33,608 nucleotides of DNA, from positions 1 through 33,608 of the IMG/VR virus record IMGVR_UViG_3300028394_000019. One strand, given 5' to 3'. A program made the position numbers and the translations under genes. The stretch comes from a virus. How positions within the stretch are numbered: position 1 is the stretch's first letter; the number at the start of each line of letters is the position of its first letter. Below are positions 7,305 through 29,901 of the stretch, one piece after another. Under the pieces are notes generated by a model. It ran no database searches and was not told the origin of the DNA. It saw nothing but the letters and a program-made list of their open reading frames with translations.

Positions 7305-9870
7305 TTCATTCTACCGATTTCAGCCTGCATGGAATGCCGGGTTCTATCCGGATAACCAAATCACTTCCAATCTGCTTAATGAAGTAGAATCCACTCTTGG
7401 GGCATGGCTACCAGGCTTTTTTACTGGCAAGACCATAAGTGAATTGATTGCAGGAGTTCAAAGTCAATTGGATGTTTATAATACCTTCCCATACTTTGGG
7501 GATTTCAAAATAGTATCTACTACTGCTCCTGATCCACCATTTGTGGATTATTACATTTATGTGAGAAATAGTAGTCTCTATGCAATTGATAATTCTCAGC
7601 AATTATTAATTTCTGGTCAATACAATCCTACAACAAATGTAGTTATCAATGCAACATTAAGTGCATTTACTCCGGGCAGTTACTCAGGCACATTTGACAA
7701 CTCAGCCATTCCAGTTGAGGCCGAGGTTGATAGGGCATTGCAGATTGTTGAGCAGAATGGCTCTGCTTTCTTCCCCATGACTTACTCATTCAACTCAGGC
7801 ACTAACATTGCCACAAGTGGATTGGCAAGAGGCAAGAACTGGCAGCTTGATTCTTCAGGGAATGCCACAAGACTTCCTGCCGATACATTGCCAAAGCAGA
7901 ACGCAAGGACATTCAGTTTGGCTGCTCAGACTGCTGAGGATAGGTATTGCATAAGCCTGATGGAAAAGGTTATTAGCTTCTCTTTTACCAATACTGTTGC
8001 AATCGAAGTAAGAAACTACTTTCTTACATTCTCTCTGCCTGATGGCTGGGGTTATACTGCTTCAATAGTTGCAGGAACTTATGATAGGCTATACTTACAA
8101 CTTTACCGAGATGATAGAAGCTTGTTAATGATTGGCAGGCTTGATACCACTTGGCTTTGGCAGAGGTTTATTGATGATTCAGGCACTAATGATGTCAATT
8201 ACTTCATTGACTACTCATCAACAACTCAATTGCCTTACTTGCCATTGGCAAGCTATCAGTGGTTATTTGGTGATTGGTATGACATGGAATTTGTAGACTT
8301 CAATGCTGGATGCTATGAGAGTCCTGAGTTCTATGCCATGCCTGCAATACCAGGAGACAATTGGCAATTCAATGTGCCATCTGATTCAGGCAATCTTACA
8401 GGCCTTACAACAGCCTCAGTAGGCTTGTTCACTCAGGATGGGCAATTCATTCAGCAATTAGGTGAGGCGGTCAGAAACTGCTGCTTTGAGGCCTATCTAC
8501 CCTATGTAATAGTTGATGGCTCTACACCAGCCTTTGATGATTGGGTAAGCTTTGTAGACACTTACTTAGTAACCACTCCACTTCAATTCTTCTTTAGCAA
8601 TCAGACAGCTAACTACTCGGGCTTAACAGCAGGAACAGAAACAGCAGGGCAAATAGGAGCAATAGCAGCAACTCTTCCAGCCGGAACAGTTACAACCTAT
8701 GACAAGCAGGACTTCATTGATGCAGTTGCAGCCTTGTCTTGGCCTGCTGGCATAGAGGTTACAGGAAGCGCTGTAAGCTTCTCAGGCAGTGAAGTGGTAG
8801 AGCTTAAGTTCTGCAATTACTTAGCAAGTCAATATCCATCAATTCAGGCTAAATCAATAGTAGGAGAAGCTACATTTTTTTTAAGCTACATTAAATCTCT
8901 CTGCTGTGAGCCTCAGCAATTTCAGGCTACATCATTAATTCCAGCAGTTGCTTCGGGGTGTTATAGGCTTGGGATTTACAACCTTCAGGAAACAGGTGGA
9001 TCTAATACTTGTGAATTGACATTTGAGTATATTATTGACAGCCCCGAAGCTTATGTAGACTCAATAAATACATATTCCCCAAATTTTTTAGGGTTTGCAT
9101 TATGGGATGGAAGTACACTGTCGCAGATTTACAGTCAGCAAATCCCATCTACTTCTCCTCCAGCAACGGGTTTTGACCTTGCCCAAATTATAGACTTCGC
9201 AAATGGCATCCCGGGCATGGTTGCCACTTATGATGAAGAGACTGCTTATTTAACCTATAACTGGACAGTAACAGTGCCATGCAATCAAGAGTTTAGTTTT
9301 AGGCATTTAGTGCTTAATGAGGATGATAGTATTGAAGATTTAATTTTTGCAACAGAAACTCAGCTCTGTACTTGTGAGGTGGTGGACTTGGATGCCTATT
9401 CACTCTACTCCCTTAGCAACATCATTAACATTGATGGCTCTGACTGCTTCTCTACCATGCTTGAGTTTTGGGCTAATGATAATTCAATTGCTCAGGGCTT
9501 TGAATACTTTAATGGATGGAAGCAAAGAGTAAGACTTGGCCTAAATGGTGGAGGGGCTAAGCCAGTAATTGAGGAGAATGTTTACAGGCAATCCAATGGA
9601 GTTCACAGAAGGCCACAAAACAAGCAAGATTTATCATTAGATTTGCATACGGATTTTATTGATGAACAGACTCAGTTTGCGCTTGTCGATGCCACTCGCC
9701 ATCCGTTTTTAGTTTGGAACAATAAGTCCATATTTGTGAAGGGAGACTTGGATGTTGCCACCATTCAAGATTTCACGACACAGTCATCATTTGAAACCTT
9801 GGCTCAGGTCAAGTTTTCGGCACTCGTTCAAGGCTTTCAGCCAAAAAACTCAAGTTGTTTAACTTGCTAA
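7297..9870 (+). CDS. Large virion structural protein of the tail/adsorption module
   Basis: An 857-residue protein, using the ATG at 7297 (MPNSFYRFQPAW). A TTG four codons upstream is also in frame but less likely. The protein is rich in aromatic residues, Asn, Ser and Thr. It has scattered Cys pairs (NCC near 395, LCC near 530), and the C-terminal 80 residues are more basic (RPQNKQDLSLDLHTDF). No enzyme motif is visible. Its size and place between the fibre and the Ig-domain protein suggest a receptor-binding or baseplate component. Not recognised beyond that. Confidence 0.55.
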   Translation: MPNSFYRFQPAWNAGFYPDNQITSNLLNEVESTLGAWLPGFFTGKTISELIAGVQSQLDVYNTFPYFGDFKIVSTTAPDPPFVDYYIYVRNSSLYAIDNSQQLLISGQYNPTTNVVINATLSAFTPGSYSGTFDNSAIPVEAEVDRALQIVEQNGSAFFPMTYSFNSGTNIATSGLARGKNWQLDSSGNATRLPADTLPKQNARTFSLAAQTAEDRYCISLMEKVISFSFTNTVAIEVRNYFLTFSLPDGWGYTASIVAGTYDRLYLQLYRDDRSLLMIGRLDTTWLWQRFIDDSGTNDVNYFIDYSSTTQLPYLPLASYQWLFGDWYDMEFVDFNAGCYESPEFYAMPAIPGDNWQFNVPSDSGNLTGLTTASVGLFTQDGQFIQQLGEAVRNCCFEAYLPYVIVDGSTPAFDDWVSFVDTYLVTTPLQFFFSNQTANYSGLTAGTETAGQIGAIAATLPAGTVTTYDKQDFIDAVAALSWPAGIEVTGSAVSFSGSEVVELKFCNYLASQYPSIQAKSIVGEATFFLSYIKSLCCEPQQFQATSLIPAVASGCYRLGIYNLQETGGSNTCELTFEYIIDSPEAYVDSINTYSPNFLGFALWDGSTLSQIYSQQIPSTSPPATGFDLAQIIDFANGIPGMVATYDEETAYLTYNWTVTVPCNQEFSFRHLVLNEDDSIEDLIFATETQLCTCEVVDLDAYSLYSLSNIINIDGSDCFSTMLEFWANDNSIAQGFEYFNGWKQRVRLGLNGGGAKPVIEENVYRQSNGVHRRPQNKQDLSLDLHTDFIDEQTQFALVDATRHPFLVWNNKSIFVKGDLDVATIQDFTTQSSFETLAQVKFSALVQGFQPKNSSCLTC

Positions 9871-17172: not shown

Positions 17173-17280
17173 CAATCAGGACAGGATTCGAACCTGCATT
17201 TATGCCACCATACAACTTACTTTTCGGGCGAGTTACGCAAACTCTCGTTGTATGTGCCTTACCAATTAGGCTACCTGATT
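17173..17280 (-). tRNA. Atypical tRNA gene with enlarged anticodon region (anticodon unresolved)
   Basis: Clear tRNA parts read on the - strand. The acceptor stem AATCAGG pairs with CCTGATT (7 bp). The D-arm is GCC-TAATTGGTAA-GGC, and the T-arm is GCAGG-TTCGAAT-CCTGT. Between D- and T-arms there are 57 bases instead of about 22. These include an 8-bp helix CATACAAC/GTTGTATG enclosing 30 bases with a second hairpin GAGTT-TGCGT-AACTC. No standard 7-base anticodon loop with U33 is evident, so the gene carries an insertion, is degenerate, or folds unusually. It is about 108 nt long. Confidence 0.55.
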
Positions 17281-27246: not shown

Positions 27247-27573
27247 ATGAAATACACAACAAAATATTTAAAAGAACTTGCTAATGGTAATTTAGTAATA
27301 CCTCAAGGCAGTGATATATACAACTCTATGGTAAGGGAAACTTTGCGTGATTTGATTAGAGGCAATGAATCTGATACTGTACTTGAGGAATATATCCAGT
27401 GTGGTGATCTTGTTCCCTTTGACTATGTTAGCGACCTATCAGAGATAATCAATGAACTTGCTCGGATTCTTTTGGAGGAGAGAGAAGATTATAAAGAAAT
27501 CTTAATTGAGGCACAAGGCTACCTTGATCAATCAATTAAAAATATTGATAATGTCTTAAAAGATATGAAATAG
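27247..27573 (+). CDS. Hypothetical acidic early protein
   Basis: A 108-residue acidic, helical protein (RILLEEREDYKEILIEAQGY near 73-92), more AT-rich than its neighbours. Starts 4 bp after the previous stop. It is not recognised. Small acidic phage proteins can mimic DNA, but no diagnostic feature is present. Its end is followed at once by the promoter of the candidate small RNA. Confidence 0.5.
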   Translation: MKYTTKYLKELANGNLVIPQGSDIYNSMVRETLRDLIRGNESDTVLEEYIQCGDLVPFDYVSDLSEIINELARILLEEREDYKEILIEAQGYLDQSIKNIDNVLKDMK

Positions 27574-27588
27574 AAGTAAAAACTTTTT

Positions 27589-27596
27589 TAGATTTG
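27589..27596 (+). promoter_or_regulatory. -7 box for the candidate small RNA / leader
   Basis: TAGATTTG matches TAnnTTTG exactly. The predicted start near 27600 coincides with the first base of the first hairpin of the downstream RNA. No TTG lies about 19 bp upstream, so only the -7 part is certain. Confidence 0.5.
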
Positions 27597-27599
27597 CAT

Positions 27600-27702
27600 G
27601 TCGAAAGACCACTGGGTAGCAGCAGTGATTGTAAAAAATTCTTAATCTCCTTTGTCCGCTTAGTAGGGTCTGCTACCCCGAAAGGCGAACAAAGGATTTT
27701 TT
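27600..27702 (+). ncRNA. Candidate structured small RNA or attenuator with complementary hairpin loops
   Basis: About 103 nt with three hairpins. Hairpin 1 is GTC-GAAA-GAC (27600-27609, GNRA-type loop). Hairpin 2 has arms CACTG (27610-27614) and CAGTG (27623-27627) around the loop GGTAGCAG. After a linker, hairpin 3 is TCCTTTGT (27648-27655) with ACAAAGGA (27689-27696), plus inner CGC/GCG, and is followed by T6, so it is a terminator. Its loop contains CTGCTACC (27670-27677), the exact complement of the loop of hairpin 2. This allows a kissing or pseudoknot interaction. A competing pairing AGTAG/CTGCT (27662-27674) exists within hairpin 3. It could act in trans, or in cis on the gene starting at 27708. 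Confidence 0.65.
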
Positions 27703-27707
27703 GTTTT

Positions 27708-27881
27708 ATGAATAAAGTTTTTTCAGAACTAAAAATTGACATTACTTACAGATTAGAGTTTGATAATGTTTTAGTTATGGTGTGGTTTGATGACACCTTA
27801 ATTGCAGAAGGCATTTATAATAGTATTTCAGAAGTACCTTCTATTAAAGAAATTTTAAGAGAAAGTCAGATGAAGCCATGA
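27708..27881 (+). CDS. Small hypothetical protein downstream of the RNA element
   Basis: A 57-residue protein from the ATG at 27708 (MNKVFSELKIDITYR). The frame is open further 5' but that part lies within the structured RNA and lacks an ATG. Beta strands (IDITYRLEF, VLVMVWFDDTLIAEG) precede a helix (SIKEILRESQ). It begins 5 bases after the terminator T-run and overlaps the next gene by 4 bases, so attenuation of this gene and the replication genes after it is a possible regulatory mode. Confidence 0.55.
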   Translation: MNKVFSELKIDITYRLEFDNVLVMVWFDDTLIAEGIYNSISEVPSIKEILRESQMKP

Positions 27882-28576
27882 ATGGGTATCAACTAACCAG
27901 GCAATGGTTTGAATGGAGATTTAATAATCCAGGCAAGCTTTCTGCTGGACATGCAGAACTTTATTTTTACATAGTTGATCGGTGGAATTATTTTGGTCAA
28001 AAGGCTGAGTTTGGTCTACCAAGATTGCACACTATGGAGGTGCTTTCAATTGGTAGTAGAAATACTTACAAGAAACTTTTTGGTGACTTGATTGAACATG
28101 GATTTATCAAATTAATTCGTGAATCCTGTAATCAATACCATCATTCATCCATAATTGCCTTGTCAAAATTTGAGCAAGCACCTGACACACCACTTGACAC
28201 ACCAACTGAGCAAGCAACTGATCAACCACTTGACCCAATAGATAAACTAAAGAATAAAGAAATTAAAGAACCTAAGAAGGGAGATTTTGATTTTTCAGGC
28301 TATGGTGAATTAGAGCCTTTAGTTAAAAAATGGCTTGATTATAAAAAGTCTATTAAACAAAGTTATAAGTCACAGCAGAGCCTTAATAGTTTTTTCAAAA
28401 GGCTAAAGGATCTTTCAGGTAATAATATCTTAATTGCTGATTCAATAATTGAGCAATCAATAGCTTCTGAGTGGAAAGGTATTTTTACCCTACAAAACAA
28501 AAAAGAGGCAACCACATTTATTCCGCCCGAAAGTAGGCCGATGAGAGTTCACGAATCTTACCAAACAAACCAATGA
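27878..28576 (+). CDS. Replication protein, probable helicase loader/initiator
   Basis: A 232-residue protein next to DnaB (ATGA overlap). The N-terminal 100 residues are a winged-helix type domain (AELYFYIVDRWNYFG, then GLPRLHTMEVLSIGSRNTYKKLF). A Thr/Pro/Gln-rich linker (PDTPLDTPTEQATDQPLDP) separates it from a charged helical C-terminal domain with VKKWLDYKKSIKQSYK, resembling the region that DnaD- and loader-like proteins use on DNA and helicase. The phage origin may lie in or near this gene, but no iterons are evident. Confidence 0.65.
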   Translation: MNGYQLTRQWFEWRFNNPGKLSAGHAELYFYIVDRWNYFGQKAEFGLPRLHTMEVLSIGSRNTYKKLFGDLIEHGFIKLIRESCNQYHHSSIIALSKFEQAPDTPLDTPTEQATDQPLDPIDKLKNKEIKEPKKGDFDFSGYGELEPLVKKWLDYKKSIKQSYKSQQSLNSFFKRLKDLSGNNILIADSIIEQSIASEWKGIFTLQNKKEATTFIPPESRPMRVHESYQTNQ

Positions 28577-29901
28577 ATTTTACAAATGAAGAATTAGAGA
28601 GGCAAGTCCTTTCTGCTATGATGATTTATGACGAGGAAAGGCTTACTGCCTTCTCAATCATTCCAAGTGTAGAGGTGTTTCAGGATGAAAAGCACAAGAC
28701 TATTGCCAAAGCCATCCAAGCGCAGCAAGATGCTGGTGAGCCTGTAAACCTTGAGACTGTTGTCTTAACCTTGAGAAAATCCGGATTGCTTAATGAAGCC
28801 GGAGGCATTTCATTTATAACTTCGGTTTTTACAAGCCTAAAGAATCCTGGGCATACTGAAATTCATTGCCGGATGTTAGTTGAGCAGTTTATGAGGTCAA
28901 AGTTTCTATACATTGCCACCGAGATGCTAACTAAGGCCAACTCTGACTCAGGTGATATATTTGAACTAATCACTGAAATGCAGGGCAAGACAGATGGCCT
29001 GCTGACTTCAACAGTAAATAAGTCAGATGATAACTTTCAGACTCAGCTGGATATTTCAGCAGAGATGTGGTTCAATAAAGCCGCTGGAACTATTGCAGGC
29101 TACCCAACAGGCATCTCTTCACTTGATAAGCTTTGTGGAGGCTTGACAAACTCCGAGCTTACTGTTGTAGGTGCAAGACCCGGGCAAGGTAAAACTGCTC
29201 TTGTGGTAAGCCTAATCAGAAACTTGGTTAAGCAAGGCATAGGCTGTGGCATGTTTAGCCTCGAAATGAACAAACACGAATTAGCCCAAAGGCTTGCCAG
29301 CCAAGAATCTCAGGTTTATGCTTTCAAAATAAAGCAGGGAAACATGAATGAACTTGACATTAATGCACTAAAAAGTGCTGTAAACGGCATGAAAGACTGG
29401 AATATCAAGATCTGCGATGAAGGGTACATGAACATGAGGAAAATCAGGACTAAGGCCACCATGTGGAAAAACAAGTATGACATCAAGGTCATATTTGTGG
29501 ATTACATTGGCCTCATTGAATCTGTCAATCCTAAAGAGACAAACAGAGTGAATATTGTTGGCGAAATATCAAGAGGTCTGAAGCTTCTTGCAAAAGAGTT
29601 GCAGCTTCCGGTTGTTGCCTTAAGCCAGCTATCCAGGAGAGTTGATGAAAGGCCCGATAAAATGCCTTTGATGTCCGACCTTAGAGAGTCCGGTTCAGTT
29701 GAGCAGGATGCTGATGTTATTTGGATGATGATGAGGCCAGCATTTTACTTTGACCCAACTGCCACCACCAAAGTTGGCAATCTTGAACTCTCAAACTATG
29801 ACCTTTGCTTAATTGATCAAGTCAAAATGCGGTCAGGTTCAACAGGAGTGATACCTTTGAAATTCGATGGCCCTTTAATGCGACTCAGAAACTATGAATA
29901 A
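28573..29901 (+). CDS. dnaB: Replicative DNA helicase, DnaB family
   Basis: A 442-residue protein. The N-terminal DnaB domain (LERQVLSAMMI ... VETVVLTLRKSG-like region, about 6-110) is followed by a linker and the RecA-like core. Walker A is GARPGQGKT (200-208), then SLEMNKHELAQRLAS, the Walker B-like VIFVDYIGLIE (about 304-314), LSQLSRR and SGSVEQDADVI. It unwinds DNA at the phage replication fork and is loaded by the protein encoded just upstream. The 3' end overlaps the next gene by 8 bases. Confidence 0.95.
   Translation: MNFTNEELERQVLSAMMIYDEERLTAFSIIPSVEVFQDEKHKTIAKAIQAQQDAGEPVNLETVVLTLRKSGLLNEAGGISFITSVFTSLKNPGHTEIHCRMLVEQFMRSKFLYIATEMLTKANSDSGDIFELITEMQGKTDGLLTSTVNKSDDNFQTQLDISAEMWFNKAAGTIAGYPTGISSLDKLCGGLTNSELTVVGARPGQGKTALVVSLIRNLVKQGIGCGMFSLEMNKHELAQRLASQESQVYAFKIKQGNMNELDINALKSAVNGMKDWNIKICDEGYMNMRKIRTKATMWKNKYDIKVIFVDYIGLIESVNPKETNRVNIVGEISRGLKLLAKELQLPVVALSQLSRRVDERPDKMPLMSDLRESGSVEQDADVIWMMMRPAFYFDPTATTKVGNLELSNYDLCLIDQVKMRSGSTGVIPLKFDGPLMRLRNYE

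Follow-up and report, generated by a model that had tools for sequence, protein, structure and literature searches.

We analyzed a window of 33,608 nucleotides of viral DNA (positions 1 to 33,608 of IMG/VR record IMGVR_UViG_3300028394_000019). On its + strand, positions 27589-27702 hold the parts of a putative structured RNA, and three genes follow on the same strand. The first is a 57-aa open reading frame (27708-27881) whose ATG lies 12 nt past P3, the last hairpin of the RNA. This gene is variable, and its protein has no match in Pfam and no relatives that we could find. The second gene (27878-28576) encodes a 232-aa, O-like replication initiation protein (PHROG 678, E = 9.6e-8), and the third (28573-29901) encodes a DnaB-like replicative helicase (PHROG 19, E = 1.1e-82; DnaB_C, E = 1.2e-75). 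A preliminary description of this locus had named a helicase loader and DnaB as the downstream genes. It was right about DnaB; the other gene resembles the replication initiator O and is not clearly a helicase loader. The linker of the O-like protein (28171-28249) contains short tandem repeats with a 12-bp spacing, and it is at such a place that iterons are found in lambdoid O genes.

We noted a few other features of the window. Just 5' of the RNA, a 108-aa protein (27247-27573) has a match to the PHROG for a restriction (McrBC-type) inhibitor that is not significant (E = 0.028). On the - strand, Rfam's tRNA model matches a 108-nt stretch at 17173-17280 (44.9 bits), and ARAGORN reports no tRNA; perhaps this is an intron-bearing or degenerate tRNA. 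A DnaJ-type match in a portal-sized protein was weak, and we disregarded it.

The RNA element consists of a promoter box, three hairpins, and a T-tract, all on the + strand and all where the preliminary description had placed them. The -7 promoter box, TAGATTTG (27589-27596), matches the consensus TAnnTTTG exactly. P1 (27600-27609) is a 3-bp hairpin, GTC-GAAA-GAC, at the predicted 5' end of the RNA. P2 (27610-27627) is the hairpin CACTG-GGTAGCAG-CAGTG, whose 8-nt loop, GGTAGCAG, spans 27615-27622. P3, a terminator-type hairpin, spans 27649-27695 in our alignment of the window's type of RNA (A1, described below). It has an outer stem (CCTTTGT/ACAAAGG), a CGC/GCG stem, and a GG/CC step (27666-27667/27678-27679), as well as an internal loop in which AGTA (27662-27665) faces GAA (27680-27682). 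In RNA, the letters of this AGUA/GAA loop resemble the bulged-G (sarcin-ricin) motif. On the 3' side of P3 is a T6 tract (27697-27702), the predicted 3' end of an intrinsic terminator.

The loop of P2 had been proposed to pair with a strand of the terminator hairpin. The two are exact complements: all 8 nt of the P2 loop can pair with CTGCTACC at 27670-27677 (+), to form a pseudoknot or kissing helix that we call PK1. When we folded 27600-27702, P1, P2, and P3 were recovered, with an energy of -30.4 kcal/mol and a z-score of -2.45 versus shuffled sequences, which on its own is modest. As a control for chance complementarity, we considered unrelated hairpins with 5-bp stems and 8-nt loops from the contigs that we had fetched. 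A full complement of the loop was present 20-100 nt downstream for 8 of these 4233 hairpins. The loop complement by itself is unusual though not impossible, and the comparative evidence is far stronger.

For the comparison, we gathered related contigs with DnaB and the 232-aa replication protein. The RNA was then located by its sequence, and further contigs were found by patterns. Dozens of phage contigs have the RNA, which occupies the same position in its relatives and falls into two types. Type A, which is the window's type, is represented by 17 distinct sequences (alignment A1). Type B is represented by about 46 copies in related phage contigs, and its alignment (A2) has 28 rows. Both types have the -7 box, P1, P2, the pairing of the P2 loop with P3, and the U-tract; the partner strand of PK1 is at the same relative position in both; and most copies of both types have the AGUA/GAA internal loop. 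In type B, the outer stem of P3 is CCCCATTCGG/CCGGATGGGG instead of CCTTTGT/ACAAAGG, and there is an extra hairpin within P3. A covariance model of type A matches two type B copies (E = 1.7e-4 and 3.0e-4), which supports common ancestry of the two types.

Each of the phages of about 35 kb that we searched has one RNA, of type A or type B. Several phages of 45-69 kb have a type A RNA and then a divergent type B RNA 340-590 nt later. (The pairs are at 194 and 786 in L053, at 7404 and 7769 in L054, in L058, and at 8755 and 9094 in L064.) In these phages, one or two small ORFs lie between the RNAs, and both RNAs are 5' of the replication genes. A 69-kb record (G014) has an equal-scoring RNA at both ends (8-127 and 68979-69098 (-)), which is consistent with terminal redundancy or a circular overlap. 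We also saw that the genes flanking the RNA (27708-27881 in the window, and its equivalents) differ between close relatives and that the RNA is kept; the RNA may mark a recombination boundary.

The preliminary description had called for compensatory changes in the loop-loop pairing, and type B has them. PK1 is paired in all 28 rows of A2 (100% of cells), and 4 of its 6 pairs covary. For P2, 100% of cells are paired and 3 of 4 pairs covary. Across the whole type B structure, 98.4% of cells are paired, compared to 84.1% when shuffled and at most 50.9% when slid, and 21 of the 39 pairs have changed on both sides. The covariation score is 0.399, compared to 0.128 when shuffled (0/500 shuffles) and at most 0.074 when slid. 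Covariation is thinner in type A because the copies are about 90% alike. Overall, 99.6% of type A cells are paired, with 100% for P2 and 98.5% for PK1, in which one pair changes from G-C to C-G in 3 rows and one outer pair is lost in 2 rows. Both pairs of P3b (the GG/CC step) change on both sides in type A, and the middle pair of P1 is U-A, C-G, or G-C among the copies, with pairing kept. A competing helix inside the terminator loop, which had been suggested as an alternative to the kissing helix, found no support: 3 of 17 sequences break this helix (GUAG/CUAC), and we saw no compensatory change in it.

In type B, there is a second pseudoknot (PK2), between the linker strand just 5' of an AUG and the apical loop of P3c, and all 6 of its pairs change on both sides. 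PK2 was first proposed by eye from the sequences in A2, and the retest used 17 linker/loop pairs from outside A2. The summed helix length was 97, compared to a mean of 71 for shuffled pairs, and none of 2000 permutations were as high; the first test had given 0/2000 too. A pattern restricted to the 5' half (the region of the -7 box, P1, and the first part of P2) has 72 matches, of which 59 have the TA of the box, and in 58 of these 59, a complement of the loop is present downstream. The 60 pattern matches with the complement include 25 distinct sequences outside A2. Overall, a conserved RNA family with a loop-to-P3 pseudoknot is well supported by these comparisons, and so, from the covariation, is the earlier view of this element as a structured phage RNA with its own promoter and terminator.

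By column frequencies across the copies, both the TA and the TTTG of the box before P1 are 97-100% conserved. TAnnTTTG lies 3-5 nt 5' of P1 (mostly 4), and the upstream flanks are otherwise dissimilar. In the promoter consensus of Flavobacterium, there is a T at -12 and a G at -5 (PMC9723704; PMC6847099). With this spacing, transcription is predicted to start at P1, at about 27600-27601. A TTTG at -33 is not evident in the window's copy and is present in several homologs. Given the promoter type, and a BT4734-like primase domain in one relative, the hosts are probably Bacteroidota.

At the other end of the element, P3 is a G+C-rich hairpin that is followed at once by a T-run, which by sequence and fold is the form of an intrinsic terminator, and a T-rich tract is 3' of P3 in the listed copies as well as in the window. 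A simple terminator scanner did not list P3, probably due to its internal loops. With this appearance, P3 and its U-tract might be an ordinary terminator for the upstream operon, with a new promoter adjacent to it and a structure that has no regulatory role. Such an arrangement would leave unexplained the covariation of P1, P2, PK1, and PK2, as well as the placement of the hairpin 3' of the promoter and immediately before a start codon, and we give it hardly any credence.

In 73 of 76 distinct contexts, replication genes (initiator- or helicase/primase-related) lie downstream of the RNA, and the other three contexts have under 500 nt of downstream sequence. These modules are non-homologous: they contain DnaB, Prim-Pol and DnaB_C, Toprim and a helicase, or a BT4734-like domain and PriCT. 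The next ATG is 8-13 nt past P3 in 33 of 37 type A copies and 8-11 nt past P3 in 72 of 74 type B copies. A second promoter would not fit into so short a distance, which implies that the first gene lacks a leader of its own and would rely on read-through. In 55 of 61 cases, the downstream start codon has U at -3, which is a poor start context by the rule for F. johnsoniae (PMC6847099). Control of read-through into the replication genes, which was one of the two roles in the preliminary description, would fit the constant position of the RNA at the head of the operon.

The invariable association with replication initiation genes, across unrelated modules, could also arise if replication at this site is primed or activated by the RNA or by the act of transcribing it. 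RNA II primes the replication of plasmid ColE1, for instance. At the RNA, we found no iteron-like array and no turning point in the skew, and a primer needs no terminator before the next gene. We consider an origin-linked transcript to be quite improbable.

In type B, the linker contains exactly one ATG in all 46 copies, and it begins an ORF of about 31 aa. The frame of this ATG is open across P3 in 46/46 copies, and the other frames are open in 35 and 20 copies. Since one alternative frame is open in 35 of the 46, the openness of the frame alone is weak evidence. The stop codon of the ORF often overlaps the downstream start codon (ATGA). Some type B copies read P3 in another frame, or have compensating indels, and are still open; the type B copies L101/L118 are without the leader ATG. 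At start codons, A is favored at -3 (PMC6847099), and the leader AUG has the preferred A in only 10 of 44 cases. The peptide has no match in Pfam or PHROG.

One could argue from the single ATG at the same place in all of these copies, and from the ORF that is open across P3, that the peptide of about 31 aa is the product that matters in type B and that the RNA structure only controls its translation. However, the frame differs between phages, the peptide resembles nothing in those two databases, and the ORF is unconserved in type A as well as absent from L101/L118; we find this account highly improbable. Type A has no conserved ORF through P3 (7 of the 17 rows have one that starts with ATG), and in the window's copy, no ORF through P3 starts inside the transcript. 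Because type A lacks a conserved ORF, coupling to a ribosome is not the common mechanism. Ribosome-coupled read-through is plausible for type B, judging from its sequences, and not in general.

We observed that the fold is conserved, that it has a promoter box, that type B contains an ORF, and that the RNA keeps its position ahead of replication genes. With moderate confidence, we favor the reading that the element is the 5' leader of the replication operon and acts mainly in cis as a conditional terminator (an attenuator). The termination, the switch, and its trigger are what we infer. Transcription would begin at P1, and the nascent RNA would fold P1 and P2. The loop of P2 would capture the strand inside P3, so that the terminator joins a compact pseudoknotted fold; in type B, the linker strand would additionally capture the apical loop of P3c. 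Once the fold is complete, RNA polymerase would stop at the U-tract, leaving a product of roughly 100-130 nt. If the fold is blocked, polymerase would continue into the genes for the initiator and the helicase/primase, and the read-through RNA would have P3 right up against the next gene's start codon. For type B, the fold would be blocked by a ribosome that starts at the AUG just after the PK2 strand, crosses P3, and ends at or near the next start codon. The trigger might be the loading of a ribosome, a phage or host protein, or a ligand. PK1 is compatible with the stem of the terminator, and because it does not exclude that stem, the fold itself shows no antiterminator state. The pairing pattern suggests that the kissing helix and the terminator form together.

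We scanned regions with both types against Rfam, using both the gathering thresholds and a lax threshold (E ≤ 10), and found no credible match, in agreement with the preliminary description, which had not recognized a known class. For Rfam's riboswitch aptamer classes, there were just sub-threshold chance matches. The c4 antisense RNA (RF01695) was a candidate, and its covariance model had no match at the gathering threshold or at E ≤ 10. Among isolate phages, there was no real DNA match to type A or type B. A search of 84,980 species genomes with one exact type B pattern found no real copy; its lone match, in a Clostridia MAG, lacks the fold and is due to chance. The exact P2 sequence was not found in IMG/VR, and we found no description of the element in the literature (open-licence papers). 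Within the limits of these searches, this is a newly recognized, previously undescribed RNA family.

The terminated RNA, of 100-130 nt, might itself be the active product: a stable RNA that acts in trans, either by regulating the replication transcripts of the same phage or of a superinfecting phage, much like the CI RNA of P4, or by binding a host or phage protein. The element does have its own promoter and terminator and a compact fold in which nearly every loop is paired, and it lies before replication genes, as in P4 (PMC4825925). Also, the letters of PK1 and PK2 diversify yet stay complementary, which would fit specificity groups. However, the 8-mer that is complementary to the P2 loop has no other copy in the 33.6-kb window, so there is no second target there, and the helices of P2 and P3b vary like PK1 does, as in ordinary structural drift. 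The fixed short distance to the next start codon points to action in cis. Furthermore, we recognized no lysogeny genes among the window's proteins that we tested, and the one type B pattern had no real copy in the species genomes. We view a trans-acting RNA as unlikely, and it is the main rival to attenuation in cis.

We propose, tentatively, that these RNAs are conditional terminators of a new class. The terminator hairpin of a member would be locked by covarying pseudoknots, one in type A and two in type B. Members would sense a ribosome, a protein, or a ligand, and they would be the common on-switch for non-homologous replication modules in Bacteroidota-type phages. In the leader ORF of type B, it would be the openness, and not the frame, that is conserved. 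For phage replication operons, a handful of proteobacterial elements, P4 among them, are known to use control by RNA. This class would be a widespread and structurally distinct solution in phages with the Bacteroidota promoter type, whose gene control is poorly known. The use of one RNA across unrelated machineries (DnaB, Prim-Pol, and Toprim/PriCT) suggests a common regulatory input at the start of replication. The fold is defined well enough for an entry in Rfam.

In ZTP-class riboswitches, a hairpin domain is linked by a pseudoknot to a terminator hairpin. Such pseudoknot-terminator riboswitches have the same three components as the present RNA, which, in contrast, has no above-threshold match to a riboswitch in Rfam and is found only before phage replication operons. 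In the c4 antisense RNA of phages P1 and P7, short loop segments are complementary to nearby targets. The c4 RNA is similar to ours as a phage RNA with short loop segments that have complements nearby (RF01695; the family is listed in PMC2864571). Leader-peptide attenuation has been proposed in Flavobacterium (PMC9723704), and such attenuators also combine a promoter, a short ORF, a terminator, and an operon. However, the type B ORF crosses the terminator rather than ending before it, has no run of regulatory codons, shifts its frame between phages, and is unconserved in type A.

IsrK of Gifsy-1 has a phage promoter, a structured RNA, an intrinsic terminator, a short ORF, and read-through into phage genes (PMC4825925), and is alike in these respects. 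It differs in that it lies before an antirepressor gene and has long alternative helices, and we found no common sequence or fold. In P4, the CI RNA pairs with complementary sequences of the replication transcript, and this pairing ends the transcript prematurely (PMC4825925). The P4 CI immunity RNA and the present RNA, between which we found no sequence relation, are alike in that a leader RNA before replication genes has internal complementary segments, with premature termination as the proposed output. However, the CI RNA is an antisense RNA that is processed from the leader and acts via seqA and seqC (PMC4825925), while in the present RNA, the complementary segments form a covarying pseudoknot within a promoter-terminator unit.
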